Virus record (IMG/VR): IMGVR_UViG_3300032291_003110 | Location: 1-28,356 of that record | Source of the DNA: a virus | Length of the DNA stretch: 28,356 nucleotides | Reading direction: 5' to 3' (one strand) | Part shown: piece by piece, positions 2,393-25,374 of the stretch | Layout of the letters: the number at the start of each line of letters is the position of its first letter | How positions within the stretch are numbered: position 1 is the first letter of the stretch | The notes under the pieces: model-generated | What the model was told of the DNA's origin: nothing | The model's input: only the letters and a program-made list of their open reading frames with translations | Databases searched by the model: none | Translations under genes and position numbers: made by a program

Positions 2393-3222
2393 TTGGCAAA
2401 GTGCCGATGCGGATTGTCAAATTGCACCATTTGCTTGTTAACGTCATTCTGGGCCAATTTTTCCCAGGGGTCTTGTGTGCCTTTCCAAATGTTTTGAAAG
2501 AATTCAACACTGAGTCCTTGGCTGTGCATGTATGTGGCTAACTTGGCACAATCTTGATGACGTAGTTCAATCTGTGTCACGCTGTGGAAATCTGCCTCAT
2601 CCATGGGGCGACCCTCCAAGGCAGCACGTTCACGGAATGTGGCATCATTGTTGTTGCCGGTAATATCGGCACGGTCATGCAACACCCAAACAGGTATGCG
2701 TTCCCAGATGTCCAACATATAGGCCTGTTGACTGAGCCAGCCATCTTGTACTGAGTGCGGAGAGATATAGCCCAATAGTTCATACCATTTGCGTGGTAAT
2801 ATAGGGAAGATACTGTAGGGATGATCCAAGTGAGTATGAAATGCCAGCAGTTTGAACTCACCTTCATGCCGCATGATTTCTGTGTCCCAACCTTGGGTTT
2901 CCATCACAGCATCATCATTCCAAATCATCAACCAACGAGCATCAGTGTGTTCGGCCAATTTGTTGTTGTAGATGTGCAGTCTATGATAGCCTTGACGTTC
3001 AAACTGCATGGCAGTGTAATTGAGATTGCGTTCGTCCAACCAAGGTTGTAATTCCGTCTTGAAGTATTCAGTACCTGCCACATCATCATTGTCAAACGCA
3101 AACATCAACTGTAGTTGTTCGGGATGATCAGCAAGATCAATCAGGCTGCGAACACTACGGCCCAGGCTGTCAGTGCGGCCTCTTGTGGCCAGCAACATTG
3201 CAATATCATACTCAGGTGCCAT
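2389..3222 (-). CDS. GT-A type glycosyltransferase-like protein
   Basis: The protein starts MAPEYDIAMLLATRGR, typical of the first strand of family 2-like GT-A glycosyltransferases. FAFDNDD and, further on, MIWNDDAVM provide candidate acidic metal and nucleotide-sugar binding motifs. The chosen ATG at 3222 has GAGGA about 8 bases upstream and gives 277 residues. The open frame extends to 3303, but those extra 27 residues lie inside the preceding QueD-like gene and look unnatural. It overlaps that gene by 11 bases and is followed by the B12 radical SAM gene with a 4-base overlap. Sugar donor and acceptor cannot be told; phage surface glycans, host lipopolysaccharide or modified DNA are all possible acceptors. 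Confidence 0.75.
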   Translation of the reverse strand: MAPEYDIAMLLATRGRTDSLGRSVRSLIDLADHPEQLQLMFAFDNDDVAGTEYFKTELQPWLDERNLNYTAMQFERQGYHRLHIYNNKLAEHTDARWLMIWNDDAVMETQGWDTEIMRHEGEFKLLAFHTHLDHPYSIFPILPRKWYELLGYISPHSVQDGWLSQQAYMLDIWERIPVWVLHDRADITGNNNDATFRERAALEGRPMDEADFHSVTQIELRHQDCAKLATYMHSQGLSVEFFQNIWKGTQDPWEKLAQNDVNKQMVQFDNPHRHFAK

Positions 3223-3697
3223 ACAACAAGTCCTCGTTCCAATCGCTATTACCTTCGTAGATGGCGCTGTTGGCACCGTGTTCAGCGCACTCAACTCGGA
3301 CACAATAGCAACGATCGTTGGTCTTTTGTCGAATCAATTCATCAGCAAAGTTAAAAGCATGTTCGGCAAATTTCTCTGCACCCACACCATCAAAAATTCT
3401 AATCTCAGCTAGATCCAATGCTTCCAGTTCTTGGAACTTGGCCAAGTGTGGATCAGTTTTATCCAAGGCCAACTTGTGATCAAAATGATCTTCCAGCCAG
3501 GCCTTGAGTGGTTTGAGTCCGCCAAAGTCCACGGCCCAGTTTTTGTTGTCTAATGAGTCGCATCCAAATGTGAATGTAAACGCTAGACTGTAGCCATGTA
3601 GCAAATGACAATGTGAATGATCTGCGTTGGGTTGGCGGAATACCGCTGACAGACCAATGTTGTGTCCGTAATGTTTTGTTGAGTAATATTTTGCCAT
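3212..3697 (-). CDS. queD: QueD / 6-pyruvoyl-tetrahydropterin synthase family protein
   Basis: This 161-residue T-fold protein belongs to the 6-carboxytetrahydropterin synthase family, which acts after GTP cyclohydrolase I in 7-deazaguanine (preQ0) synthesis. SHCHLLHGYS (28-37) contains the likely catalytic Cys30 and His34. VDFGGLK is at 56-62, FDHKLAL at 72-78 and a glutamate-bearing VECAEHGANSAIY strand lies near the C-terminus. The usual zinc triad looks altered: HGH reads HGY (Tyr36), and the histidine of FSAAHRL appears replaced in GLSAVFRQ (Phe20). The start at 3697 has AGGAG 8 bases upstream and sits directly behind the duplicated promoter element. Family membership is clear; whether it makes the canonical product is uncertain. 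Confidence 0.88.
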   Translation of the reverse strand: MAKYYSTKHYGHNIGLSAVFRQPNADHSHCHLLHGYSLAFTFTFGCDSLDNKNWAVDFGGLKPLKAWLEDHFDHKLALDKTDPHLAKFQELEALDLAEIRIFDGVGAEKFAEHAFNFADELIRQKTNDRCYCVRVECAEHGANSAIYEGNSDWNEDLLYGT

Positions 3698-3704
3698 TGT
3701 AATT

Positions 3705-3770
3705 CTCCTATGTTAAATTATAGCATAGACTGGCAGAGTTTGTATAGCGGGATGAAGCCAAAGACCGCTT
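3705..3770 (-). repeat. 66-bp intergenic repeat, copy 1 (promoter/leader element)
   Basis: Nearly identical to 4495-4560 apart from one single-base gap and a few changes. On the minus strand it carries, in order, an inverted repeat AGCGG-N14-CCGCT, an extended -10 TGCTATAAT, and AGGAG ahead of the QueD-like gene. The -10 lies between CTATG and CATAG, which are complementary. No T-run follows the GC stem, so it does not look like a classic terminator. Confidence 0.9.
3717..3726 (-). promoter_or_regulatory. Extended -10 promoter for queD-like gene
   Basis: The minus strand reads TGCTATAAT, a consensus extended -10 (TGnTATAAT), with TACAAA 16 bases further upstream as a weak -35. The AGGAG Shine-Dalgarno (3705-3709) and ATG (3697) follow at normal spacing. 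The same arrangement precedes the neighbouring methyltransferase gene. Confidence 0.65.
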
Positions 3771-3780
3771 AAAAAAATAG

Positions 3781-4488
3781 TTATTTTTCAAATACTAATC
3801 TAATATTTCCGTCTAGGTACTCGTCGTAGATCTCTGCAATTAAATTATCAATGATTAAAAATTTTAAAGGCAGTGTTTTAATTTTTTGATTTACATAATC
3901 TGACAGTTTTCCAGTATCAGGCGCATCAGTGTCAAACAACTCTTTTAAGATTTTTTTATCTGTGTTGTCAACCATTCGGGCCACGTTCATTGAAAGATAT
4001 CCTCTGCCCCCCGGTTTTATAATTTTTGTAAAATCCATAACTCTTTCATAAAAACTTGTAATTGGAATATAATGCAGTGCATTGATGGAAAATGCACACT
4101 GGAAAAAATTTGTATGTTTGGTAATAAAATTGTCATCAAAATATTCATTGACATCTCTCTCTTCGCCACTGCCGTCGAATCCTATGATTCCAGGTATTAT
4201 ATCTTTGAAAAAATTCATTCCACATCCAATGTCTGCAATTTTTGATGGTTGTATTTCCAATAACTTAGTTAGATAATAAAAAGATGCACAGGGGATAATT
4301 CCAGTTAATGTTTGACATCTAGGGCTGACCATACGATTACTCGACTGCAAATTGTCAGTCTGATGAAATTTGTAGAAATCATTTAGTGTAAACCGTCCAT
4401 ATTTGTTCTTAATTTCTTCTTTAAAAAATTCAACAATTTTTTTACATATTTCTTCGTTGTATGGATCAAGTTGTAATTGATTTGCCAT
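3781..4488 (-). CDS. Class I SAM-dependent methyltransferase-like protein
   Basis: A 235-residue protein with IADIGCG (84-90), the motif I SAM-binding loop of class I methyltransferases. IIGFDGSGEERDV supplies a plausible motif II acidic strand, INALHYIP resembles motif IV, and IIKPGGRGYLSMN matches the post-motif strand. The substrate is unknown. The gene is clearly AT-richer than most neighbours and is bracketed by two copies of a 66-bp promoter-like repeat, suggesting acquisition as a cassette. The start has a strong AGGAGG 5 bases upstream. The downstream end lies only about 10 bases from repeat copy 1. Confidence 0.82.
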   Translation of the reverse strand: MANQLQLDPYNEEICKKIVEFFKEEIKNKYGRFTLNDFYKFHQTDNLQSSNRMVSPRCQTLTGIIPCASFYYLTKLLEIQPSKIADIGCGMNFFKDIIPGIIGFDGSGEERDVNEYFDDNFITKHTNFFQCAFSINALHYIPITSFYERVMDFTKIIKPGGRGYLSMNVARMVDNTDKKILKELFDTDAPDTGKLSDYVNQKIKTLPLKFLIIDNLIAEIYDEYLDGNIRLVFEK

Positions 4489-4494
4489 GTCATC

Positions 4495-4560
4495 CTCCTA
4501 TGTTAATTATAGCATAGACTGGCAGAGTTTGTAAAGCGGGATGAACGTCAAAGGCCGCTG
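4495..4560 (-). repeat. 66-bp intergenic repeat, copy 2 (promoter/leader element)
   Basis: Second copy of the element at 3705-3770, upstream of the methyltransferase gene. It keeps the AGCGG/CCGCT inverted repeat (loop one base longer), the extended -10 TGCTATAAT, the CTATG/CATAG pair around it and the Shine-Dalgarno sequence. Differences concentrate in the loop of the GC stem. Confidence 0.9.
4506..4515 (-). promoter_or_regulatory. Extended -10 promoter for methyltransferase gene
   Basis: Minus-strand TGCTATAAT with TTTACA 18 bases upstream as a possible -35. It is followed by AGGAGG (4494-4499) and the ATG at 4488. Identical in layout to the promoter ahead of the QueD-like gene. Confidence 0.65.
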
Positions 4561-4570
4561 TTTATATGAA

Positions 4571-5377
4571 CTATAGATGGTATTGATCAATTATATCCAA
4601 GGTATTAACAAAATAATTGTTTCTTAGCAGTGGATCTATGTTGTAATTTTCTACTAACCAATTATCTATCCATGCTTCTTGCAAAAAGTTGGTATTTGAT
4701 ATGTGCATTGATTTTTTATTTTTAATTGAATCAATAATCAACTCAGGATATACATCAACATACTTATATCTATTTCGCGCATAAAAATTGTCCAATAGAG
4801 GCAGTATGTTTTTTGATGGTGTAATATCAAATGTATTGGTAATGTCATGACATTTTTGTATCAACAGTGTTGGATTGTAAAACCATTCAAAGTTAAACGT
4901 GTAGTCGGAATCTTTGATTAATGAACGTTTCATAATTTGAGTTATAGAACTACCTTGGCAGGCAAAAAAACATAATCTTGCCCATTCTCTGAGATATTGA
5001 AAATCAACATCTCCGCCTGATTGCCCCGAGATGGTAGACAATGAAGGAATAAAATAGTTTAAAACAACATGATTTTTTAATTTATCAAACGTATTTTTAT
5101 TGAAGTCTTCGATAGAAAAATCATATCCTGCTGTTCGGGACAAACACATAACAATGTATTTTAAATACGATTTGTTATCTACCACAATATTAATTCTTCC
5201 ACGCACATGTGGGCTATTTAATATTTTACGTTTGGTTGTAAACTTAATCTCTGAATGATATGTAACGCGGTCATAAATCGACTCATTATTGTGTTCACAG
5301 TTTACACCACTCAGTGAGTTTAGCAAGAAAGTTAAAAAATGTCCGTGTGAACCACTAGGAAACACAATTTCAATCAT
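4571..5377 (-). CDS. Uncharacterised AT-rich phage protein, possibly sulfotransferase-like
   Basis: A 268-residue protein beginning MIEIVFPSGSHGHFLTFLLN. The PSGSHGHFL segment resembles the P-loop-like PAPS-binding turn at the start of sulfotransferases, but I see no convincing second PAPS motif, so this is only a suggestion. The rest is rich in Asn, Lys, Ile and Tyr and matches no family I recognise. Base composition is noticeably AT-rich, like the methyltransferase gene next to it, hinting that the two arrived together. No good Shine-Dalgarno precedes the ATG at 5377; a CATAAATA box lies 9 bases upstream. Confidence 0.6.
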   Translation of the reverse strand: MIEIVFPSGSHGHFLTFLLNSLSGVNCEHNNESIYDRVTYHSEIKFTTKRKILNSPHVRGRINIVVDNKSYLKYIVMCLSRTAGYDFSIEDFNKNTFDKLKNHVVLNYFIPSLSTISGQSGGDVDFQYLREWARLCFFACQGSSITQIMKRSLIKDSDYTFNFEWFYNPTLLIQKCHDITNTFDITPSKNILPLLDNFYARNRYKYVDVYPELIIDSIKNKKSMHISNTNFLQEAWIDNWLVENYNIDPLLRNNYFVNTLDIIDQYHL

Positions 5378-5386
5378 ATAGAAAAA

Positions 5387-5394
5387 TATTTATG
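5387..5394 (-). promoter_or_regulatory. T4-late-promoter-like box CATAAATA
   Basis: The minus strand reads CATAAATA, matching the NATAAATA form of T4-like late promoters, 9 bases before the ATG at 5377 and overlapping the HIT gene stop. Position fits a promoter, although a transcript would have almost no leader. The same 8-mer occurs once by chance inside a gene on the opposite strand, so it is tentative. Confidence 0.35.
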
Positions 5395-5794
5395 CTGGCT
5401 GTTGATAGCCGGCTGCTCGATAGTTGGCTTGCCCTGAGATAACTCCACGTACACCGCCCACAGGGTCAGCACAATCACCCAGCCGTCTAGGAATGAGATG
5501 CACATGCGGATACATCACTGTTTGGCCAGCAGCAGTACCACAGTTGATGCCTATGTTGAATGCATCACACTCTCCGTCCGCAACCATTCGTCGACCCTCT
5601 CGCATGGCTGTTTCAAAACAATCGAATATGACTCGATCTGTATTGTATTGCGGCACAAACAACATGTGTCCTGGTGTCACAGGATAGCGGTCTTCAAACA
5701 CAGCCACATGAAAGTCTGTGAGTCGTTCAACCATTAAGTCCCAGGGTGCCACTCCTGCGGCTTGTGCTTCTGCTAATGTTTCGTACTTGATCAT
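5390..5794 (-). CDS. HIT-family nucleotide hydrolase/transferase-like protein
   Basis: A 134-residue histidine-triad protein. The family signature appears as GQTVMYPHVHLIPRR (90-104), where His97 and His99 correspond to the catalytic and last histidines. The first histidine of the HxHxH triad is replaced by Tyr95. Upstream ERYPVTPGHMLFVP-like strands (DRYPVTPGHML, 35-45) and the closing DPVGGVRGVI (110-119) are also typical. HIT proteins cleave phosphoramidate or phosphoanhydride bonds of nucleotides. The ATG overlaps the stop of the membrane protein gene upstream by 4 bases. Its cellular role in the phage cannot be read from sequence. Confidence 0.88.
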   Translation of the reverse strand: MIKYETLAEAQAAGVAPWDLMVERLTDFHVAVFEDRYPVTPGHMLFVPQYNTDRVIFDCFETAMREGRRMVADGECDAFNIGINCGTAAGQTVMYPHVHLIPRRLGDCADPVGGVRGVISGQANYRAAGYQQPA

Positions 5795-6489
5795 TCTTTT
5801 CTACCGCCAAACAACTGCAACAAATTCAAGAACAAGTTGATAAAGTCCATGTACAATGTCAATGCACCACGTACTTCTGCCGCATCGCTAGTTTCCACAC
5901 TGAGTTCTTCACGAATCTTTTGTGTGTCGTAGGCAGTGAGTCCCAGAAAGATTATGATAGCCAGGGCACTGATAACCATTTGCATCACGGTTGATCCAAT
6001 GAAGATGTTCACAAGGCTGGCAATCACAATGGCAATCAAGCCCACAAACAAGAACTTGCCCAGGCTATCCAAACTTTGTTTGGTAAAGTAGCCATAGCCA
6101 CTCATTACCCCAAACAAGATGGCAGCGCCCATGAATGCACTCACAATCGATCCCATGGTAAACACAGCAAAGATCATTGCAAAGCTCAGGCCCATCAAGG
6201 CCGCGAATCCATGTAGACACAACTGTGCCACTTGCTTTGACGGGTCATTGGCCAACACGTAACTCACACCAAATATGGCTGCTAGTGGTGCAAAAATCAC
6301 AATCCATTTCAACACCCCGGTAAAAAAGAATTGCAAAAGTTCTGGTGTGGTACCAATCCAGTAGCTGACCAACATGCTGACCAGTACTGCCAGGCTCATG
6401 TGCCCATACACACGACCCATGGCCGAATTAATTTCTTCTGCTGATCGATAATTTAAAACGTCTTGACTGTTGTAGTTTGTATCAAACAT
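5791..6489 (-). CDS. Bax inhibitor-1/YccA-family membrane protein
   Basis: A 232-residue protein with about seven hydrophobic segments (roughly 31-46, 56-80, 87-110, 112-133, 146-165, 170-186, 209-227) after a soluble N-terminus. This is the pattern of the Bax inhibitor-1 (TMBIM) family. The C-terminal signatures GLTAYDTQKI (183-192) and LYMDFINLFLNLL (212-224) are present. Asp188 and Asp215 match the pair that forms the pH-sensitive site in the bacterial calcium-leak homologue YetJ. Bacterial relatives include YccA, a modulator of the FtsH protease. AAAGGA lies 7 bases before the ATG. In a phage it could act on host membrane physiology or proteolysis; this is inference. Confidence 0.92.
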   Translation of the reverse strand: MFDTNYNSQDVLNYRSAEEINSAMGRVYGHMSLAVLVSMLVSYWIGTTPELLQFFFTGVLKWIVIFAPLAAIFGVSYVLANDPSKQVAQLCLHGFAALMGLSFAMIFAVFTMGSIVSAFMGAAILFGVMSGYGYFTKQSLDSLGKFLFVGLIAIVIASLVNIFIGSTVMQMVISALAIIIFLGLTAYDTQKIREELSVETSDAAEVRGALTLYMDFINLFLNLLQLFGGRKE

Positions 6490-6499
6490 AATTTTTCCT

Positions 6500-6616
6500 T
6501 TAAGTTAATTCTACCACTCTATATTGAGATGCAGGATAGTGTTCCTGCAACCACTCCAAAAGTCCTGGTTCCCAGTGAAATTGAATTTCGCCTGTGATAT
6601 TTGTAATTATGATCAT
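6500..6616 (-). CDS. Small 38-residue ORF downstream of folE
   Basis: A short minus-strand ORF from ATG 6616 to TAA 6500 fills the gap between folE and the membrane protein gene. It overlaps the folE stop by 4 bases in the ATGA arrangement used throughout this genome, and GGAG lies 11 bases upstream. The product starts MIIITNITGEIQFHWEPG and continues into a hydrophilic segment with LLEWLQEHYP. No family is recognised. The coupling and gap-filling position support it being translated; the short length keeps confidence moderate. Confidence 0.55.
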   Translation of the reverse strand: MIIITNITGEIQFHWEPGLLEWLQEHYPASQYRVVELT

Positions 6617-7359
6617 CTTGGTGCAAACTCCTGTTGCAGTTTGATATTGTCCATGAACTCTTTTTTCACACTGTCGTCTGTTTTAAAAGCACCACGCAAC
6701 ACAGTGGTCTGTGTCAAACTTGAGTGTGCCATGATGCCGCGATTCTCACAGCAACCGTGTACTGCTTGAATGTACACACCCACATCTTTTGAGTTGGTCG
6801 CTGCCATGATCTCATTGGCAATGTCTATGCACAGCTCTTCCTGTAAGGTACCGCGACGAGCACACCACTGAGCAATACGAGTGTACTTGCTAAGACCGAT
6901 AAGTTTTTGTGCGGCGATGATACCAATGTAAGCGACACCACTAACGGGCTGATGATGATGACTGCACATAGAGCGCAACTCGCTACGTACCACCAACATA
7001 CCTTCGTAACGGTCCGCTGTATCGTTTGGAAATGCTGTTGCGTCTGGTGGGGGTTCATATCGTCCTGCCATTATTTCATTGAAATACATCTTGGCCAGTC
7101 TACGTGCTGTGCCTTTACTATTAGGGTCGTTTTCTCTATCAATTAGCAATCGATCAAGTACTGTTTCAAATGCTTCTGTTGCTTCGGTAATCAAATGTTC
7201 TTTATCACTATCGTGCAAATATTCACTGATGTTGTCTCCGGCCCAAAAGCGTTTTCCTTCACGCTTCATTTTAAAGCGAAGTACATCTGATAGATATGCT
7301 TCTTTGTATCCGCCGTCTCCGGCCATTGCGTCCAGTGCTGTTTGTTCTTTATCTGTCAT
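6613..7359 (-). CDS. folE: GTP cyclohydrolase I
   Basis: A 248-residue protein of the FolE family, converting GTP to 7,8-dihydroneopterin triphosphate, the first step of both folate and 7-deazaguanine synthesis. Zinc and active-site motifs are visible: SMCSHHHQPVSG (130-141) with Cys132, His134 and His135, LIGLSKYTRI (153-162), and HGCCENRG (201-208) with Cys203/Cys204. GTARRLAKMYFNE (83-95) matches the helical region with the TPxRvAkmy pattern. The N-terminal 50 residues are longer than in minimal FolE. With two QueD-family proteins and a DpdA-like transglycosylase in the same run, a role in DNA base modification is more likely than folate supply. Confidence 0.95.
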   Translation of the reverse strand: MTDKEQTALDAMAGDGGYKEAYLSDVLRFKMKREGKRFWAGDNISEYLHDSDKEHLITEATEAFETVLDRLLIDRENDPNSKGTARRLAKMYFNEIMAGRYEPPPDATAFPNDTADRYEGMLVVRSELRSMCSHHHQPVSGVAYIGIIAAQKLIGLSKYTRIAQWCARRGTLQEELCIDIANEIMAATNSKDVGVYIQAVHGCCENRGIMAHSSLTQTTVLRGAFKTDDSVKKEFMDNIKLQQEFAPR

Positions 7360-7360
7360 G

Positions 7361-7963
7361 CTAGTCCTTGATAGTGATTGTTCTTAAATCTGGATAGTTA
7401 ACTTGTCGAGGTAGTGAGCAGTGTTCTTTAAGTCCTTCCAGCAGTGCTATACCTTGTACAGCTTCTTCTGGTGTGGGCTTGTAGTGATAGCCAACTCTGA
7501 ACTCTTGTTGTTCGATCCAGGGTTTGATATTTAGATCACGACCATCATACCTCATACAAATAATTGTGTCATAGGCCTGCTGGTCATCTAGTATTATAGC
7601 ACCACCACGGCCTATATGTAAAGGCTTGTCATGCCCAAAACTCAGACATTGCATAGCACCTTTTCGGTACATGTTTGGTTCCAATCTGCGAGCCGAGTCC
7701 CATATGCGGGTGCCATGGAATTGGTATTCGCCGGTCCACTCCTCTTCTCGGTAGTAGTATTTGATACCTAGCTTGTGCATGGTCATGGGAATACTCAAAT
7801 ATGTGTAAGGAGTCATTACGACTTCTTTCACACGGTCATACCTTAGACACAGCTCGATAGCGTGTGTACAACAATCAGTCATGATCACATAAGGTGCGCC
7901 AGTGAACTCTGCCAGTGCTGTTTCAAATTCCAATATCTTATCGAACATACCAGTTCCAGGCAT
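7361..7963 (-). CDS. Short DegT/DnrJ/EryC1-type aminotransferase-like protein
   Basis: The 200-residue product covers the PLP-binding large domain of DegT-family sugar aminotransferases. TDCCTHAIELCL (29-40) replaces the usual SGTAAL, EVVMTPYTYLSI (47-58) matches the EVI-P-TF strand, WDSARRL (88-94) carries the PLP-pyridine Asp89, and LSFGHDKPLHIGRGGAII (107-124) carries the Schiff-base Lys113. Family members are usually 360-400 residues, so the C-terminal small domain is absent. No frameshifted remainder is seen downstream, where folE begins 1 base later. The start at 7963 overlaps galE by 26 bases; ATG 7948 is an alternative with a weak GGAA. Likely a nucleotide-sugar enzyme or a PLP-binding derivative. 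Confidence 0.75.
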   Translation of the reverse strand: MPGTGMFDKILEFETALAEFTGAPYVIMTDCCTHAIELCLRYDRVKEVVMTPYTYLSIPMTMHKLGIKYYYREEEWTGEYQFHGTRIWDSARRLEPNMYRKGAMQCLSFGHDKPLHIGRGGAIILDDQQAYDTIICMRYDGRDLNIKPWIEQQEFRVGYHYKPTPEEAVQGIALLEGLKEHCSLPRQVNYPDLRTITIKD

Positions 7964-8888
7964 GTTGTATCATGTCATCTAATGTGTGATGCCGCCACTC
8001 GCCCGCAACCATACCAAATTTGGCAGCACTTGCGGTGAGCATGGGAGGATCGCCCGGCCTAGCCTCTCCCAGTACCACTTTTAATTTTTTTCCAGTTATA
8101 CGCTCAGCTGCGGCAATAATTTCCCGGTTACTGGTTCCTTGGTTGGAGCCTAGATTGTATACACCTGATGGAACATCATGATAGATGGCCAGACTGTGTG
8201 CTCGAGCTATGTCATTCACGTGAACATAATCACGAATGCAAGTGCCGTCAGCGGTGGCAAAGTCTACACCATTCAATGTGAATTCTTGGTCATCTCTTGT
8301 GCTTTCTAACACTCTAGAAATAAGATGTGTGCCATTGGGTGCTTGACCATGTCGACCTTGAGGATCAGCACCACAAGCATTGAAATAACGAAAACTCACA
8401 TAGTCAAGACCATATGCACGATGATATGATTGCAACATCATGTCTACCATGAGTTTGCTTTGACCATACGGTGACACAGGCTCAGCTGGATCAACTTCGT
8501 GTACGGGTAGCATGATTGGTTCGCCATAGGTGGCAGCACTGCTACTGAACACAAACTTAATTCTTGGCATGGCTTTACAAACAATATCCAATAACCGCAG
8601 TGTTTTGACCACATTGTTGTTGTAGTATTCTGAAGGATCTGTCATTGATGGTCCCACAAGACTGGTCCCAGCACAGTGAACAATGGCATTGGGTTGTTTG
8701 GTAATAATCCAACTCAATGCCACATCTGACACAAAGTCTTCAACCAAAAACTTATTATAGATGCCTTGCAAATGACTTGGTGGTTGTCGACGATCAATGC
8801 CATACACTTCGTGCCCTGCGTCTTTTAACAACAGAGCTGTTTGGCCGCCAATGTAGCCAGCTGCCCCAGTAACTACAACTGTGCTCAT
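7938..8888 (-). CDS. galE: UDP-glucose 4-epimerase-like NAD-dependent sugar epimerase
   Basis: A 316-residue extended short-chain dehydrogenase of the GalE type. TGAAGYIGGQ (7-16) is the NAD-binding glycine loop, SSSAATYG (115-122) supplies the catalytic Ser/Thr region, and YGQSK (141-145) the Tyr-x3-Lys pair. RYFNACGADPQG follows, as in GalE. CIRDYVHVNDIARAH and GVYNLGSNQGTSNREI are further GalE signatures. It would interconvert UDP-glucose and UDP-galactose or a related sugar. Its ATG overlaps the glycosyltransferase stop by 4 bases, which points to supply of an activated sugar to that enzyme. Exact substrate not determined. Confidence 0.92.
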   Translation of the reverse strand: MSTVVVTGAAGYIGGQTALLLKDAGHEVYGIDRRQPPSHLQGIYNKFLVEDFVSDVALSWIITKQPNAIVHCAGTSLVGPSMTDPSEYYNNNVVKTLRLLDIVCKAMPRIKFVFSSSAATYGEPIMLPVHEVDPAEPVSPYGQSKLMVDMMLQSYHRAYGLDYVSFRYFNACGADPQGRHGQAPNGTHLISRVLESTRDDQEFTLNGVDFATADGTCIRDYVHVNDIARAHSLAIYHDVPSGVYNLGSNQGTSNREIIAAAERITGKKLKVVLGEARPGDPPMLTASAAKFGMVAGEWRHHTLDDMIQHAWNWYVR

Positions 8889-10099
8889 GATTCGACCTTT
8901 ACTACATGATATTTGGCTTCAGCCACGTGGTCACGGTATTTCGCACCTGCCCGATTCCAGTGCTCACCCAAACCAATAAGAATATCAACAACACGGTCGA
9001 CAGTGCCATTGTTCCAGTCAGATATGAGACCCATGTTGTGATGTGGTTCTCGCAGTAAATTTTGCATCTTGTGATATGCATCATCAATGCTCCACGGCGT
9101 GTACAATCTGTTGGGATCATTGGCAAAGGTTTCGGGGAATGACCGGTATGCCGGATATAACACATTGCACCCAAGAGTATCAGCTTCACTGACTGTATTG
9201 CTGACCCAATCTTGGAGAGCACAGTTGAACAAAACTCTAGTGTTGTTGAGATGATCATAGTATTCATTTTTGCTTATGTTATCATAGATACGGAGTTTGC
9301 CCTCTGTCTCCATGCGGCGGGCACGAGCAACATATTCAGGATTGTTTGATCTAAGTTCTCCACCTGAGTACACACAGAACTCCACTCCCGCTGGACCTTG
9401 TTCGTGAACCATTTCAATCAAGTCCATGAAGAAACCAGGTTGCTTCTCTTGATCCCAACGTGCAGCAAAGCCCACACGGTGTGGACGGTCTTCAAATGGT
9501 CGAATGTTGCCAACACCGCCAATGCGTTCTAGCACTTCCTCTTTGCCAAATGCCAGACCTGAGATGTTGTAGATAGGACAATCCCAACCTGCCACTCGCA
9601 TGTGCATGACCATTTCTTCGTTGGTGGCAAGCACAGCGCCACCTGAATCACGCACTAGTTCACACACCATTTTCTCATACAGGCCCATCCATTTCTGCAT
9701 GCCCCAGACATGAACAAAATCATCAGGGTCAATGCTCTGAGCAAGACAACGAACATAAATCCTGGGCCGCAAAGATTCTGGAACCTGATTGAGTATGTAC
9801 GGAAGGCTTTCAATGCCTGGTTGAAACATGTCTTCAAAGTAGATCACATCTTCATTGGTTACTTCTCCTTGTTGCATTAGTCGCACAAGGTTCATGAGTT
9901 GGCTCATACCAAAATAACTACGGCCATGTGCATCCAGCACCTGTCCCACAACAATCTTCTGACTGTTGTCTAAGGTCAAGCCCGGCACATACACCACATT
10001 CAGTCCGCGACGTTCAAACACACGTCGATTCCATTCAGTTAGTTGTAGAGTGTATCTTGCTTCATACGACTCCAGTCCCATGTAGTACAGTTTTCTCAT
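8885..10099 (-). CDS. GT-B fold glycosyltransferase
   Basis: A 404-residue protein with the layout of GT-B (family 4-like) glycosyltransferases. A C-terminal Rossmann domain begins around VGFAARWDQEKQPGFFMDLI (209-228), the counterpart of the grl..eKg motif. NTVSEADTLGCNVLYPAYRSFPE (about 300-322) holds the glutamates and glycine that bind the nucleotide sugar. The N-terminal domain has LATNEEMVMHM near its end, typical of the acceptor-side domain. It is coupled by 4-base overlaps to the 74-residue protein upstream and to galE downstream. The acceptor may be a surface glycan or modified phage DNA; the sequence does not decide. Confidence 0.82.
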   Translation of the reverse strand: MRKLYYMGLESYEARYTLQLTEWNRRVFERRGLNVVYVPGLTLDNSQKIVVGQVLDAHGRSYFGMSQLMNLVRLMQQGEVTNEDVIYFEDMFQPGIESLPYILNQVPESLRPRIYVRCLAQSIDPDDFVHVWGMQKWMGLYEKMVCELVRDSGGAVLATNEEMVMHMRVAGWDCPIYNISGLAFGKEEVLERIGGVGNIRPFEDRPHRVGFAARWDQEKQPGFFMDLIEMVHEQGPAGVEFCVYSGGELRSNNPEYVARARRMETEGKLRIYDNISKNEYYDHLNNTRVLFNCALQDWVSNTVSEADTLGCNVLYPAYRSFPETFANDPNRLYTPWSIDDAYHKMQNLLREPHHNMGLISDWNNGTVDRVVDILIGLGEHWNRAGAKYRDHVAEAKYHVVKVES

Positions 10100-10320
10100 G
10101 AGCGATATCCTGCCAGGCGACGAGTGTCCTCATCCCACATGTTTTTGGCATACTTGCCAGCATGCCACTTGCTGAACTGCTGCCAGGCATAGGTTTTAAA
10201 ATTGTAGAGATCGCCTTCGTTGTAGCGATATCCATAGTCCTGACAGAACTCTTGGAATACTTCCAAGTCGTCAAAAATCTCTGTGACTCGGGGGTTGGGT
10301 TTGAATGAGGGTCTTGCCAT
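10096..10320 (-). CDS. Small conserved phage protein of unknown function
   Basis: A 74-residue basic and aromatic protein starting MARPSFKPNPRVTEIFDDLE. It resembles short hypothetical proteins I recall from T4-like cyanophages with the same NPRV-EIFDDLE / FC-DYGYR pattern, but no function is known to me. AAGGAG lies 6 bases before the ATG at 10320 and partly overlaps the stop of the upstream gene. The open frame extends 7 codons further, but the ribosome-binding site supports the shorter form. The stop overlaps the glycosyltransferase start by 4 bases. Confidence 0.72.
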   Translation of the reverse strand: MARPSFKPNPRVTEIFDDLEVFQEFCQDYGYRYNEGDLYNFKTYAWQQFSKWHAGKYAKNMWDEDTRRLAGYRS

Positions 10321-10330
10321 GTTGTACTCC

Positions 10331-10774
10331 TTAAATGACAATGTTGTTATAGGGTTGGGTTAATTCGTATTTGATCAAGGCACCGTTTTCGCCATCTTCG
10401 GAGACTTCAATCCACACTGCTCGGTTGGGATAGCGATTGGCTATTTGTATATATAGGTCGTCTGCCATCATCTCGCAACTTTTGTAGTCTAGTTGTAGAG
10501 TATTATCTCGGTAGAGATTTTCAAGCCAGCGTTTGAATTGAATGAATTCAATGTCTCTATCATTGTGTACAACATCAATCCACACCCGGAAATGAAAAAT
10601 GTGACGATGAGGATGTGCAAGAAACGAAACATCGTATTCATCACCTGTGGCCAGTTCAGGATTTGTGGCAGCCGCAGGATATCTGTGCATGCCTTCCTTT
10701 TGAAATGTGACCCATATTTTTTTCTGTGCATGGTGCATCACTCGGTCTATTACTGCTCGTTGTTCTTGGTTCAT
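10331..10774 (-). CDS. QueD-like T-fold protein (second 6-pyruvoyl-tetrahydropterin synthase homologue)
   Basis: A 147-residue protein whose motifs align with QueD/PTPS T-fold enzymes. EGMHRYP (27-33) matches the FsAAHRLP strand with zinc ligand His30, and PHRHIFHF (55-62) matches LHGHsFhf with His56 and His58. DRDIEFIQFKRWLENLY (72-88) corresponds to the VxDF..lk helix, and IEVSEDGENGA (122-132) to the C-terminal substrate-binding glutamate strand. The family's catalytic cysteine, four residues before the HxH, is absent (Leu52). It therefore complements the other homologue at 3212-3697, which keeps the cysteine but has lost zinc histidines. It is coupled by 4-base overlap to the nuclease-like gene upstream. 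Confidence 0.7.
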   Translation of the reverse strand: MNQEQRAVIDRVMHHAQKKIWVTFQKEGMHRYPAAATNPELATGDEYDVSFLAHPHRHIFHFRVWIDVVHNDRDIEFIQFKRWLENLYRDNTLQLDYKSCEMMADDLYIQIANRYPNRAVWIEVSEDGENGALIKYELTQPYNNIVI

Positions 10775-19663: not shown

Positions 19664-19671
19664 TATTTATG
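19664..19671 (-). promoter_or_regulatory. T4-late-like box CATAAATA upstream of DNA polymerase
   Basis: Minus-strand CATAAATA about 60 bases before the polymerase ATG and just downstream of a sigma70-like -10. DNA polymerase is normally expressed early, so a late box here may be a secondary promoter or chance. Confidence 0.25.
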
Positions 19672-20728
19672 TGTTGCTATTATACACTGATTCAAACCCA
19701 CCTGCCAACCATGTATGCGGCAAAGCACTAACTTGTTTGATCATTTCTTGTGCTTGTAAAAATTCAGGGTGATTGCGATCCAAAACATCCTGCATTGAAA
19801 AATTAGAACCATATGTTGCCCAATCAGTCAATCGAACAAATTCCACTCTGTCAGCATTGTGCTCTAAACTAAAATTATAAAATTCCAACATCTCTTGATA
19901 ATTTTGTTGTTGTACTACCATGCGGGTGTTGAATATCATACCAGTGTCACGTTTTTTATTTGACAAAAATTTCATGGCAGCCTCAAGTTCTTTCCAGGTG
20001 CCTCCACGCCGCAATATTTCGTAAGTTTTGGATCGAGCAGCATCAAAAGTTATAGTGATATTTTCAATTTTTGACTGTGCTGTTCCTAATTTGTGCCAAT
20101 TCTTCTCACACAACAGTCCATTGGTTTGCACTTTTAATGTTACATTGGGAAATTTGTCAAAATCAATCAATGAAACAAAATTCAACAACATAGTGCTAGC
20201 AAACAATTCGCCACTGGTGCTCAACGTTAAATTTATTTTTTGATCGGTTGGTGTGGTAAAAATATTTTGTGATAGAATTTTTCCAAGTTGTTGTTGTTTT
20301 TCAATTTGATCCGGTGACTGTTTTATTACACGAGTTCTGCAACTGGGACAACTGAGATTACAAGTCAAGTCACCAGCAATTACAATTTCATATGGTAAAA
20401 TAAATTCTTTTGAATCTTTCAATAAAGGTACAACATTGATTGGTACTGTGTCAATTGAATTAAGCTGATTGTTGTTTATAATCCCACAAGTTTTTTCGTT
20501 GCAGTATTCATACGAACCATCAATGATACTTTGTCTTATGTCTTGCGCCAGTGCGGATTGCAACAAGTCTTGCAATGTAGTTTGAAATAAATTTCCAATG
20601 GTGGTTGGCATCCACCCCAAGCAGCCACACAAAACCACATCGCCATTTATGTCAATGGCAATTGACATAAATGGACTTAAACAATATTTTCCGATGAAAT
20701 TTTTTGATTGAAATTTCTTTGGTTGCAC
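19667..20728 (-). CDS. Radical SAM protein with N-terminal SPASM-like cysteine region
   Basis: A 353-residue AT-rich gene. The radical SAM cluster motif is CNLSCPSC (Cys123, Cys127, Cys130), preceded by the strand YEIVIAGDLT. Unusually, the SPASM/twitch-like segment lies before it: YCLSPFMSIAIDINGDVVLCGC (Cys16, Cys34, Cys36) with IGNLFQTTLQDLL, then YCNEKTCG (Cys76, Cys81). In most family members this auxiliary-cluster domain is C-terminal. TLSTSGELFA and LKVQTNGLL are typical core strands. Start is GTG at 20728 with no clear Shine-Dalgarno. Substrate unknown; SPASM enzymes usually modify peptides or proteins. Confidence 0.82.
   Translation of the reverse strand: MQPKKFQSKNFIGKYCLSPFMSIAIDINGDVVLCGCLGWMPTTIGNLFQTTLQDLLQSALAQDIRQSIIDGSYEYCNEKTCGIINNNQLNSIDTVPINVVPLLKDSKEFILPYEIVIAGDLTCNLSCPSCRTRVIKQSPDQIEKQQQLGKILSQNIFTTPTDQKINLTLSTSGELFASTMLLNFVSLIDFDKFPNVTLKVQTNGLLCEKNWHKLGTAQSKIENITITFDAARSKTYEILRRGGTWKELEAAMKFLSNKKRDTGMIFNTRMVVQQQNYQEMLEFYNFSLEHNADRVEFVRLTDWATYGSNFSMQDVLDRNHPEFLQAQEMIKQVSALPHTWLAGGFESVYNSNT
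19679..19708 (-). promoter_or_regulatory. Sigma70-like promoter for DNA polymerase
   Basis: Minus-strand TTGGCA (19703-19708) and TATAAT (19679-19684) with an 18-base spacer, inside the 3' end of the permuted radical SAM gene and about 75 bases before the polymerase start. It leaves a leader of roughly 65-70 bases. Confidence 0.55.
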
Positions 20729-23993: not shown

Positions 23994-24288
23994 CTGATAT
24001 CTCCAACGTTGGTTGACCTTGATAATCTATTATTCGTCCTGGCCCTGCAACCACTCTATGATTGCGAACTTTGATGCGTCCGTTGGATTCGTCCACAGTT
24101 TCAAAACGTATGGGATACACTCCAGGAACAGCTTGTATTTGAAATGATTCTTCAAGATAGCAGTTTTTGCCCCAAATCCAAGTGCGTTCGGCAAACAGTT
24201 CATTGTTTACATAAGAACGATAACGAAATGGCTGACCGTGTACCTTGGCTGTGACATCGCACTCAACTTGGACAAAATGTGTTTGCAT
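23980..24288 (-). CDS. Conserved beta-rich phage protein of unknown function
   Basis: A 102-residue protein starting [18 protein letters not shown]. Alternating strands ([40 protein letters not shown]) suggest a beta-sandwich. No catalytic motif is seen. The ATG at 24288 is preferred over an upstream ATG at 24303 because the latter lies within the short divergent promoter region. A TAAATA-containing sequence immediately upstream (minus strand ACTAAATACATT) could be a weak late promoter. It is the first gene of the minus-strand block and faces the plus-strand cassette. Confidence 0.7.
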
Positions 24289-24312
24289 AATGTATTTAGT
24301 CAAAAAGCAGCC

Positions 24313-24320
24313 TATAAATA
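24313..24320 (+). promoter_or_regulatory. T4-like late promoter box TATAAATA
   Basis: Exact TATAAATA in the 36-base region between divergent genes, 4 bases before the ATG of the plus-strand radical SAM gene. Normal T4 late spacing would place the transcription start at or near that ATG, so the message would be leaderless or a later start codon is used. The position between divergent genes supports it. Confidence 0.5.
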
Positions 24321-24324
24321 TGTC

Positions 24325-25374
24325 ATGTTGAAACTCAGTGAAGTACGCAGAGTGCAGGTTGAATTGACCACACGTTGCAATGCCAGATGTCCCATGTGTA
24401 TGAGAAACTACCGTGGTTTGGACTACAATTCAGGGTATCCCATCACCGAACTTGTCCTACAACAATTTAAACACATTTTTACTCCTGAGTTTTGTGTACA
24501 ACTCACAGGCGTTGAACCAATGGTCAATGGATTTCAAAAAAAATATTTTGGGCAAGCTGGAGTCAGTTTCAATGGCAATCTTGGTGATTTTGCATCAGCC
24601 AGGGATGCTGTGGAAATAGTTGAGTACTTGACACAACATCAAGTACCAGTGTATATCAATACCAATGGCAGCCTGCGCACGCCAGATTGGTGGCGCAGAC
24701 TGGCACTGCCCGGTGTCACAGTGGGATTTGCACTGGATGGTCTGGCCGACACACATCACCTGTACAGACAAGACACAGACTGGCACAAGATAATTGCCAA
24801 TGCTCAAGCATTTATTGGCGCCGGAGGAAGAGCTGTGTGGCGGTTCGTGCCTTTTGATCACAATCGCCACCAAGAACAGCAGTGCAAACAACTGGCAACG
24901 GACATGGGATTTGCAAAATTTGAAAACATCTATGATGGCAGAGACTCAGGACCTGTGTTCACTCGCACAGGCGAGTACAGTCACAGAATCGGCACAGACT
25001 CGGGCCCAGCAAATCAAATACCGCAGGTGAAAGATTTGTTGGCCAATCACATCACATGGTTTGATCATCGCACAGTGAAATCACACAAAGATCGGCCTGA
25101 ATTAAACATAGGTTGTCAGCACAAGATCAATCAAGAAATATACATAGCCGCAGATGGCTCGGTGTATCCTTGTTGTTATCTGGGGTTTTATCCTGCAACC
25201 ATGCACCACCCAGGCAATGCACAAACAAAACATTTGGTGCAGGAAAACAACGCACTCGAATATGATTTGGCACATTGCTTGAACTGGTTTGACAGTGTGG
25301 AACAGACCTGGACCCAAGACAGCATTGCTGCAGGCAGGCTGTATCAATGTGTCAACAGTTGCTCAATATCATGA
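24325..25374 (+). CDS. Radical SAM protein with C-terminal SPASM-like cysteine region
   Basis: A 349-residue protein from ATG 24325. The cluster motif CNARCPMC gives Cys18, Cys22 and Cys25, followed by [18 protein letters not shown] and [16 protein letters not shown], typical core strands. The C-terminal part has Cys264, the [16 protein letters not shown] segment (Cys283, Cys284) and CVNSC (Cys342, Cys346), as in SPASM-type auxiliary cluster domains. The frame is open upstream to 24238, but that overlaps the divergent gene. It heads a plus-strand cassette with a methyltransferase and two glycosyltransferase-like genes. Substrate unknown. Confidence 0.85.

Follow-up and report, generated by a model that had tools for sequence, protein, structure and literature searches.

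The stretch of DNA analysed here (the window) is an IMG/VR virus record of 28,356 bases; reading its ORFs by eye showed a sliding-clamp-like gene and a DNA polymerase of family B. The genes considered in this work run in the order DpdA-like transglycosylase, gene 2, glycosyltransferase, FolE and QueD (gene 1), and their coordinates are collected in Table 1 together with those of other genes in the window. Gene 1 and gene 2 lie where an earlier note on this DNA had placed them, and both are complete and on the minus strand according to the ORF list.

Table 1. Genes of the cassette and other features in the window (positions are those of the window)
Feature	Position	Strand	Remarks
Radical SAM gene	371-2392
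Gene 1: QueD (6-carboxytetrahydropterin synthase), HC...HGY subfamily, 161 aa	3212..3697	-	Complete ORF
HIT-domain protein	5390-5794
FolE, GTP cyclohydrolase I	6613..7359	-	PF01227, 9.1e-40; same cassette in relatives
Aminotransferase-like	7361-7963
Sugar-epimerase-like	7938-8888
GT-B glycosyltransferase-like protein, 404 aa	8885..10099	-	Conserved beside gene 2; family profile against GT group 1 structures weak, E 0.0017
Small ORF between gene 2 and glycosyltransferase	10096..10341	-	Overlaps both by a few bases
Gene 2: T-fold protein, phrog_17812, 147 aa; proposed to act on 7-carboxy-7-deazaguanine (CDG), probably a decarboxylase	10331..10774	-	Complete ORF
DpdA-like transglycosylase, 561 aa	12114..13799	-	TGT-type DSGGFQ motif at about residues 106-111
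Radical SAM gene	19667-20728
Radical SAM gene	24238-25374

The transglycosylase-like protein shows 33% identity over 490 positions to gp168 of phage PA5oct, and Pfam gives no TGT-family match despite this homologue and the DSGGFQ motif. It was named DpdA-like because of the motif, its neighbours and the deazaguanine synthesis and incorporation system reported for the jumbo phage PA5oct (PMC7824862). PA5oct carries the same cassette as the window. Profile searches with the small ORF between gene 2 and the glycosyltransferase returned no family match. The window also contains three radical SAM genes within 28 kb, one of them B12-binding (KedN5-like C-methyltransferase, 4.3e-79) and two of the SPASM type, with no clear QueE among them. 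Near the cassette there are a HIT-domain protein and the aminotransferase-like and sugar-epimerase-like genes; the latter two could provide a sugar supply for the glycosyltransferase.

Gene 1 scores 52.6 bits against PF01242 (PTPS), above the cut-off of 22.4, and 33.3 bits against the NCBIfam equivalog TIGR03367, below the cut-off of 89.25, and for this reason it is placed in a variant subfamily, phrog_2389 'QueD-like', which it matches at 1.1e-40. Its predicted model (pLDDT 90.1) has a T-fold and matches the Wolinella protein 3jyg at Z 16.0 and E. coli QueD at Z 14.1-14.5. Among solved structures, the best sequence-profile match of the gene 1 family is QueD2 of Acinetobacter baumannii (7v0f), which keeps the HGH motif, whereas gene 1 does not. 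In the profile alignment with E. coli QueD (4ntk; COG0720, PF01242), Phe20 occupies the position of His16 and Tyr36 that of His33 of HGH, while Cys30, His34, Asp73-His74 and Glu139 correspond to Cys27, His31, Asp70-His71 and Glu110. The catalytic Cys, the Asp-His pair and the substrate Glu are thus all present, and the classical zinc ligands His16, His31 and His33 are represented by Phe20, His34 and Tyr36, an incomplete set. Gene 1 is therefore like the E. coli enzyme in fold (Z about 14), in the Cys, the first His of HGH, the Asp-His pair and the substrate Glu, and in its FolE/QueE context, and differs in having Phe for His16, Tyr for His33 and a conserved His (His29) just before the Cys.

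The replaced positions are conserved across viruses, alphaproteobacteria and archaea. Each of 104 viral relatives of gene 1 has Tyr36 and Asp73-His74; His29 is present in 103 of them and Cys30 in 102. When viral, bacterial and archaeal sequences are taken together, a His directly precedes the Cys in 232 of 238 HGY-type proteins and in none of the six of HGH type, a contrast among related sequences for which a p-value is descriptive only. Phe20, His29-Cys30, His34-Gly-Tyr36, Asp73-His74 and Glu139 are thus features of the family and not losses in this phage. The claim that gene 1 has lost two zinc ligands stands as far as the substitutions at the His16 and His33 positions and the retained Cys30 are concerned, but the word 'lost' misleads for what is a subfamily trait (Tyr36 in 104/104). 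The trait includes the extra conserved His29, a candidate metal ligand, given its co-conservation, that may serve as a replacement. A simple exchange of His16 for His29 was considered and dropped: the HGY-type copy of PA5oct has both residues, those of RHph_I1_18 and L101 have His16 without His29, and the copies of Xanthomonas phage X1 and Phenylobacterium have neither.

The distribution of the gene 1 type also bears on its function. In eight genomes of marine group II archaea the HGY type is the sole PF01242 match in every case, located in FolE-QueE-QueC-QueD clusters; QueC was found in all eight, TGT in seven and a homologue of gene 2 in one, the latter with in-frame stops within the reported stretch. 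These genomes are metagenome or single-cell assemblies, so that absence from them is not absolute, though all eight agree. QueD of the gene 1 type without gene 2 is present as well in phages Iggy, Pan1, BcepGomr, RHEph04 and Motura. Since the gene 1 type is the only PTPS in the eight archaeal genomes, seven of which are without gene 2, gene 1 needs no partner, and the best reading of its sequence is that of a complete QueD of the common HC...HGY subfamily that works on its own. It is predicted to make 6-carboxytetrahydropterin, for which the use of a sole copy beside FolE, QueE and QueC is indirect support. The same sole-copy use in archaea and the conservation of the replaced positions argue against gene 1 being degenerate, with a host QueD serving the phage; replacement of two of the three classical zinc ligands would fit such a situation, to which we give hardly any credence. 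QueD of phage 9g has been shown to complement E. coli (PMC6884629). Its sequence is of the HGH type, and its complementation therefore does not prove activity of the HGY type.

Several other arrangements of these proteins were observed. The two nearest relatives have a second QueD, about 39% identical, right after gene 1 (L002, 10395-11009; L003, 10456-11013), in which the catalytic Cys30 is replaced by Arg (HSHR) and which is absent from the window. PA5oct (L245, 169100-172000) has two PTPS proteins, one of HGH type and one of HGY type with His at both the His16 and His29 positions. In many alphaproteobacteria (L261-L331) the HGY QueD adjoins FolE with no QueE or QueC nearby. Aurantimonas and Microvirga have it as their one PTPS, although a full-length QueC was not found in them.

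Gene 2 matches phrog_17812 (5.8e-37), whose function is listed as unknown. Profile searches gave no match to PF01242 or to TIGR03367/NCBIfam QueD, nor to any NCBIfam family, QueF included, at E up to 1; no sequence-only search linked it to PTPS (hhalign against canonical QueD, probability 1%), and a viral scan with gene 2 of Cellulophaga phage phiST as query produced no usable matches. Its structure prediction, built from 56 window and viral sequences, has a mean pLDDT of 90.6 and the topology bbaabb. With Foldseek the highest-ranking solved structures were PTPS proteins, headed by E. coli QueD (E 8.4e-5, probability 1.00). In VIA-align the match to E. coli QueD covered 109 residues (Z 10.9, 2.7 A) and that to Pyrococcus PTPS 94 residues (Z 12.0), and dihydroneopterin aldolase, QueF-Like (Z 9.7) and urate oxidase were close behind. 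On the predicted model, the T-fold of gene 2 can be considered secure and its nearest family within the T-fold less so, the tie to QueD appearing by predicted fold only.

Strand 1 of the model ends at His30 and strand 2 starts with His56-x-His58, the positions of the zinc ligands in QueD. Leu52 lies at the position of Cys27 and the segment of Asp70-His71 is missing; this register has little statistical support, although it is consistent with the strands of the model. Thirteen diverse phage members share invariant His30, Leu52, His56, His58, Phe60, Val68, Arg73, Glu76, Phe77, Ser99, Cys100, Glu101 and Glu126, the last corresponding to the substrate-anchoring Glu on the third strand, and His70 and Asp127 are nearly invariant. 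The three-His site would bind a metal. Compared with E. coli QueD, gene 2 is alike in fold (Z 10.9) and in the three-His positions, and differs in lacking the Cys, the Asp-His pair and any sequence-level family match. The description of gene 2 in the earlier note, with its His30 and His56-x-His58 pattern and no Cys at the catalytic position, was accurate but incomplete, as the Asp-His pair and a QueD family match are missing too. Gene 2 has a distinct active site and belongs to a separate T-fold family; it is not a decayed QueD. What had been taken for two QueD homologues with complementary losses is instead a variant QueD plus a member of another family.

Gene 2 also occurs within longer ORFs. 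In Chryseobacterium phage MA9V-3 (L175, 6431-7312) it follows an HNH/endonuclease VII-like domain in one continuous reading frame, and in Vibrio phage Bakedbeans (L170, 6236-7387) it forms the C-terminal part of a 383-aa protein; fusions of this kind were seldom encountered in the loci read, and none pointed to a function. A gene-2-like domain is present in two longer viral proteins of BFVD, A0A6J5LEZ6 ('Alcohol dehydrogenase, N-terminal', 459 aa) and A0A8S5V119 ('AAA domain protein', 300 aa), which are possible fusions and could give hints about chemistry.

T-fold enzymes form oligomers and have their active sites where subunits meet. This general property, the T-fold of both proteins and the joint presence of gene 1 and gene 2 types in ten of 11 gene-2 phages would suit the mixed oligomer that had been suggested, with zinc ligands contributed by gene 2 and the cysteine for catalysis by gene 1. 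However, the gene 1 type acts as sole PTPS in archaeal genomes of which seven of eight are without gene 2, and phages such as Iggy, BcepGomr and RHEph04 have it without gene 2; gene 2 has invariant residues of its own that are not those of QueD, and in most loci the glycosyltransferase and FolE lie between the two genes. A mixed oligomer is unnecessary and, although unsupported rather than disproved, seems very improbable to us.

The gene order around gene 2 was analysed in 80 viral loci, in each of which the cassette genes that were detected share a strand. With few exceptions they run from DpdA-like through gene 2, glycosyltransferase, FolE and QueD to QueE, a series cut by the ends of the loci. 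A DpdA-like gene was detected in 76 loci, the glycosyltransferase in 77, FolE in 52, QueD in 36, QueE in 12 and QueC in none. QueE is absent from the 28 kb fragment. In the nearest large relative, of 342,865 bp, the cassette of the window is extended by QueE and another QueD copy, and a search for QueC gave no match at E 1e-3 or better.

The lack of QueC was evaluated in phage records. In the 11 records with gene 2, among them those of phiST and Acidovorax phage ACP17, PTPS is present in ten, QueE in all and a full-length QueC in none, whereas six of seven gene-2-free phages with QueD, a convenience sample, have a full-length QueC (Fisher p 0.0004, or 0.0025 if Vibrio phage D479 is counted as QueC-positive). 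D479 has gene 2 and a 268-aa partial QueC-like ORF, PTPS not being detected in it, and X1 shows a 16-bit QueC match. The clusters of phages 9g and CAjan for DNA modification with preQ0 or archaeosine share FolE, QueD, QueE and a DpdA-type transglycosylase with the window, but have QueC or Gat-QueC (PMC6884629); the window cassette has instead gene 2, a linked glycosyltransferase and a different DpdA type.

FolE, QueD and QueE make CDG from GTP, and QueC converts CDG to preQ0 (PMC6884629). The gene-2 phages stop at CDG and always carry the T-fold protein instead of QueC, which is the reason to propose that gene 2 acts on CDG. The explanation that we favour, and consider fairly probable as a whole, combines a complete QueD in gene 1 with a gene 2 acting on CDG, the window carrying part of a cassette, lacking QueC, by which the phage would modify its DNA with 7-deazaguanine. 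FolE would convert GTP to dihydroneopterin triphosphate, gene 1 alone, as a complete HC...HGY QueD, would form 6-carboxytetrahydropterin, and QueE, located outside the fragment and present in the nearest relative, would yield CDG. Gene 2, a separate T-fold enzyme with a putative metal site at His30, His56 and His58, Glu126 as predicted substrate anchor and its own candidate catalytic set (His70, Arg73, Glu76, Ser99-Cys100-Glu101), would replace QueC as the CDG-acting enzyme and most likely decarboxylate CDG to 7-deazaguanine. In a T-fold pocket the Glu would grip the pyrimidine ring and leave the far ring edge at the metal, where the C7 carboxylate of CDG would be placed; the metal would hold the carboxylate and C7 would be protonated, decarboxylation being the simplest outcome. 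The DpdA-like transglycosylase would then exchange 7-deazaguanine for guanine in DNA, so that the gene set probably replaces guanine in the phage DNA with a modified base.

With families, fold, conserved residues, gene order and lack of a full-length QueC obtained by computation, we infer the metal binding and the substrate of gene 2, the decarboxylation and DNA as the final target. A role of gene 2 in the deazaguanine cassette is very probable. For the reaction itself, deduced from the missing QueC and the fold, to which another CDG-using reaction would also be suited, we give decarboxylation slightly better than an even chance. The suggestion that one of the two proteins may do a different reaction is supported for gene 2 by its different active-site residues, its different family and its occurrence beside QueD but without full-length QueC. 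Cui et al. 2023 (NAR) reportedly described 2'-deoxy-7-deazaguanine in phages and are said to have predicted a CDG decarboxylase, DpdL. Gene 2 is found in the setting expected for DpdL, with FolE, QueD, QueE and DpdA and without QueC, D479 being the exception, and gene 2 may prove to be DpdL itself.

A second, diverged 6-carboxytetrahydropterin synthase, or another pterin-handling enzyme before QueE, would agree with QueD/PTPS as closest solved structures of gene 2 and with its usual proximity to FolE or QueE. Such an enzyme would have to operate without the catalytic Cys and the Asp-His relay, in phages nearly all of which already have a PTPS, and would leave the missing QueC without a reason; we regard it as improbable. 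More weight, although still clearly short of an even chance, is due to a gene 2 that acts on CDG or a CDG-derived base other than as a decarboxylase, for instance by adding a group used by the linked glycosyltransferase. The glycosyltransferase is as tightly linked as DpdA (77/80 versus 76/80) and has a homologue near gene 2 in five of the 11 gene-2 phages (Phosso, PA5oct, ACP17, BUCT-ZZ01 and X1), Cys100 and Glu101 are invariant, and some T-fold relatives modify deazaguanine at C7 (QueF-Like, Z 9.7). Against this, gene 2 shows no sign of a cofactor domain or an ATP site, and such a glycosyltransferase was not seen near the gene in several gene-2 phages. QueF and QueF-Like, which act on preQ0 and have C7-substituted deazaguanine substrates, share the T-fold with gene 2 (Z 9.7), but gene 2 has no QueF family match and its phages are without a full-length QueC to make preQ0.

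The conserved glycosyltransferase was not found in the QueC-type phage loci read, and possibly glycosylates the modified base. Plain 7-deazaguanine as end product would offer it no obvious acceptor; its target may lie elsewhere, or the product of gene 2 may differ. That gene 2 and the linked glycosyltransferase build from CDG, bypassing preQ0, a glycosylated or otherwise extended 7-deazaguanine in DNA, which would make gene 2 a new catalytic type of T-fold enzyme and the base an undescribed one, is an unlikely prospect.

The setting described here is already known from PA5oct (PMC7824862), and what is new is the role proposed for gene 2, provided that DpdL does not turn out to be the same family. 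With this role phrog_17812, a family of listed unknown function, gains a fold, an active site and a proposed place in a pathway, and the zinc ligands that seem to be missing from phage QueD are to be read as the mark of a functional subfamily, not of decay. Should the glycosyltransferase act on this base too, many aquatic phages would have a further DNA hypermodification.
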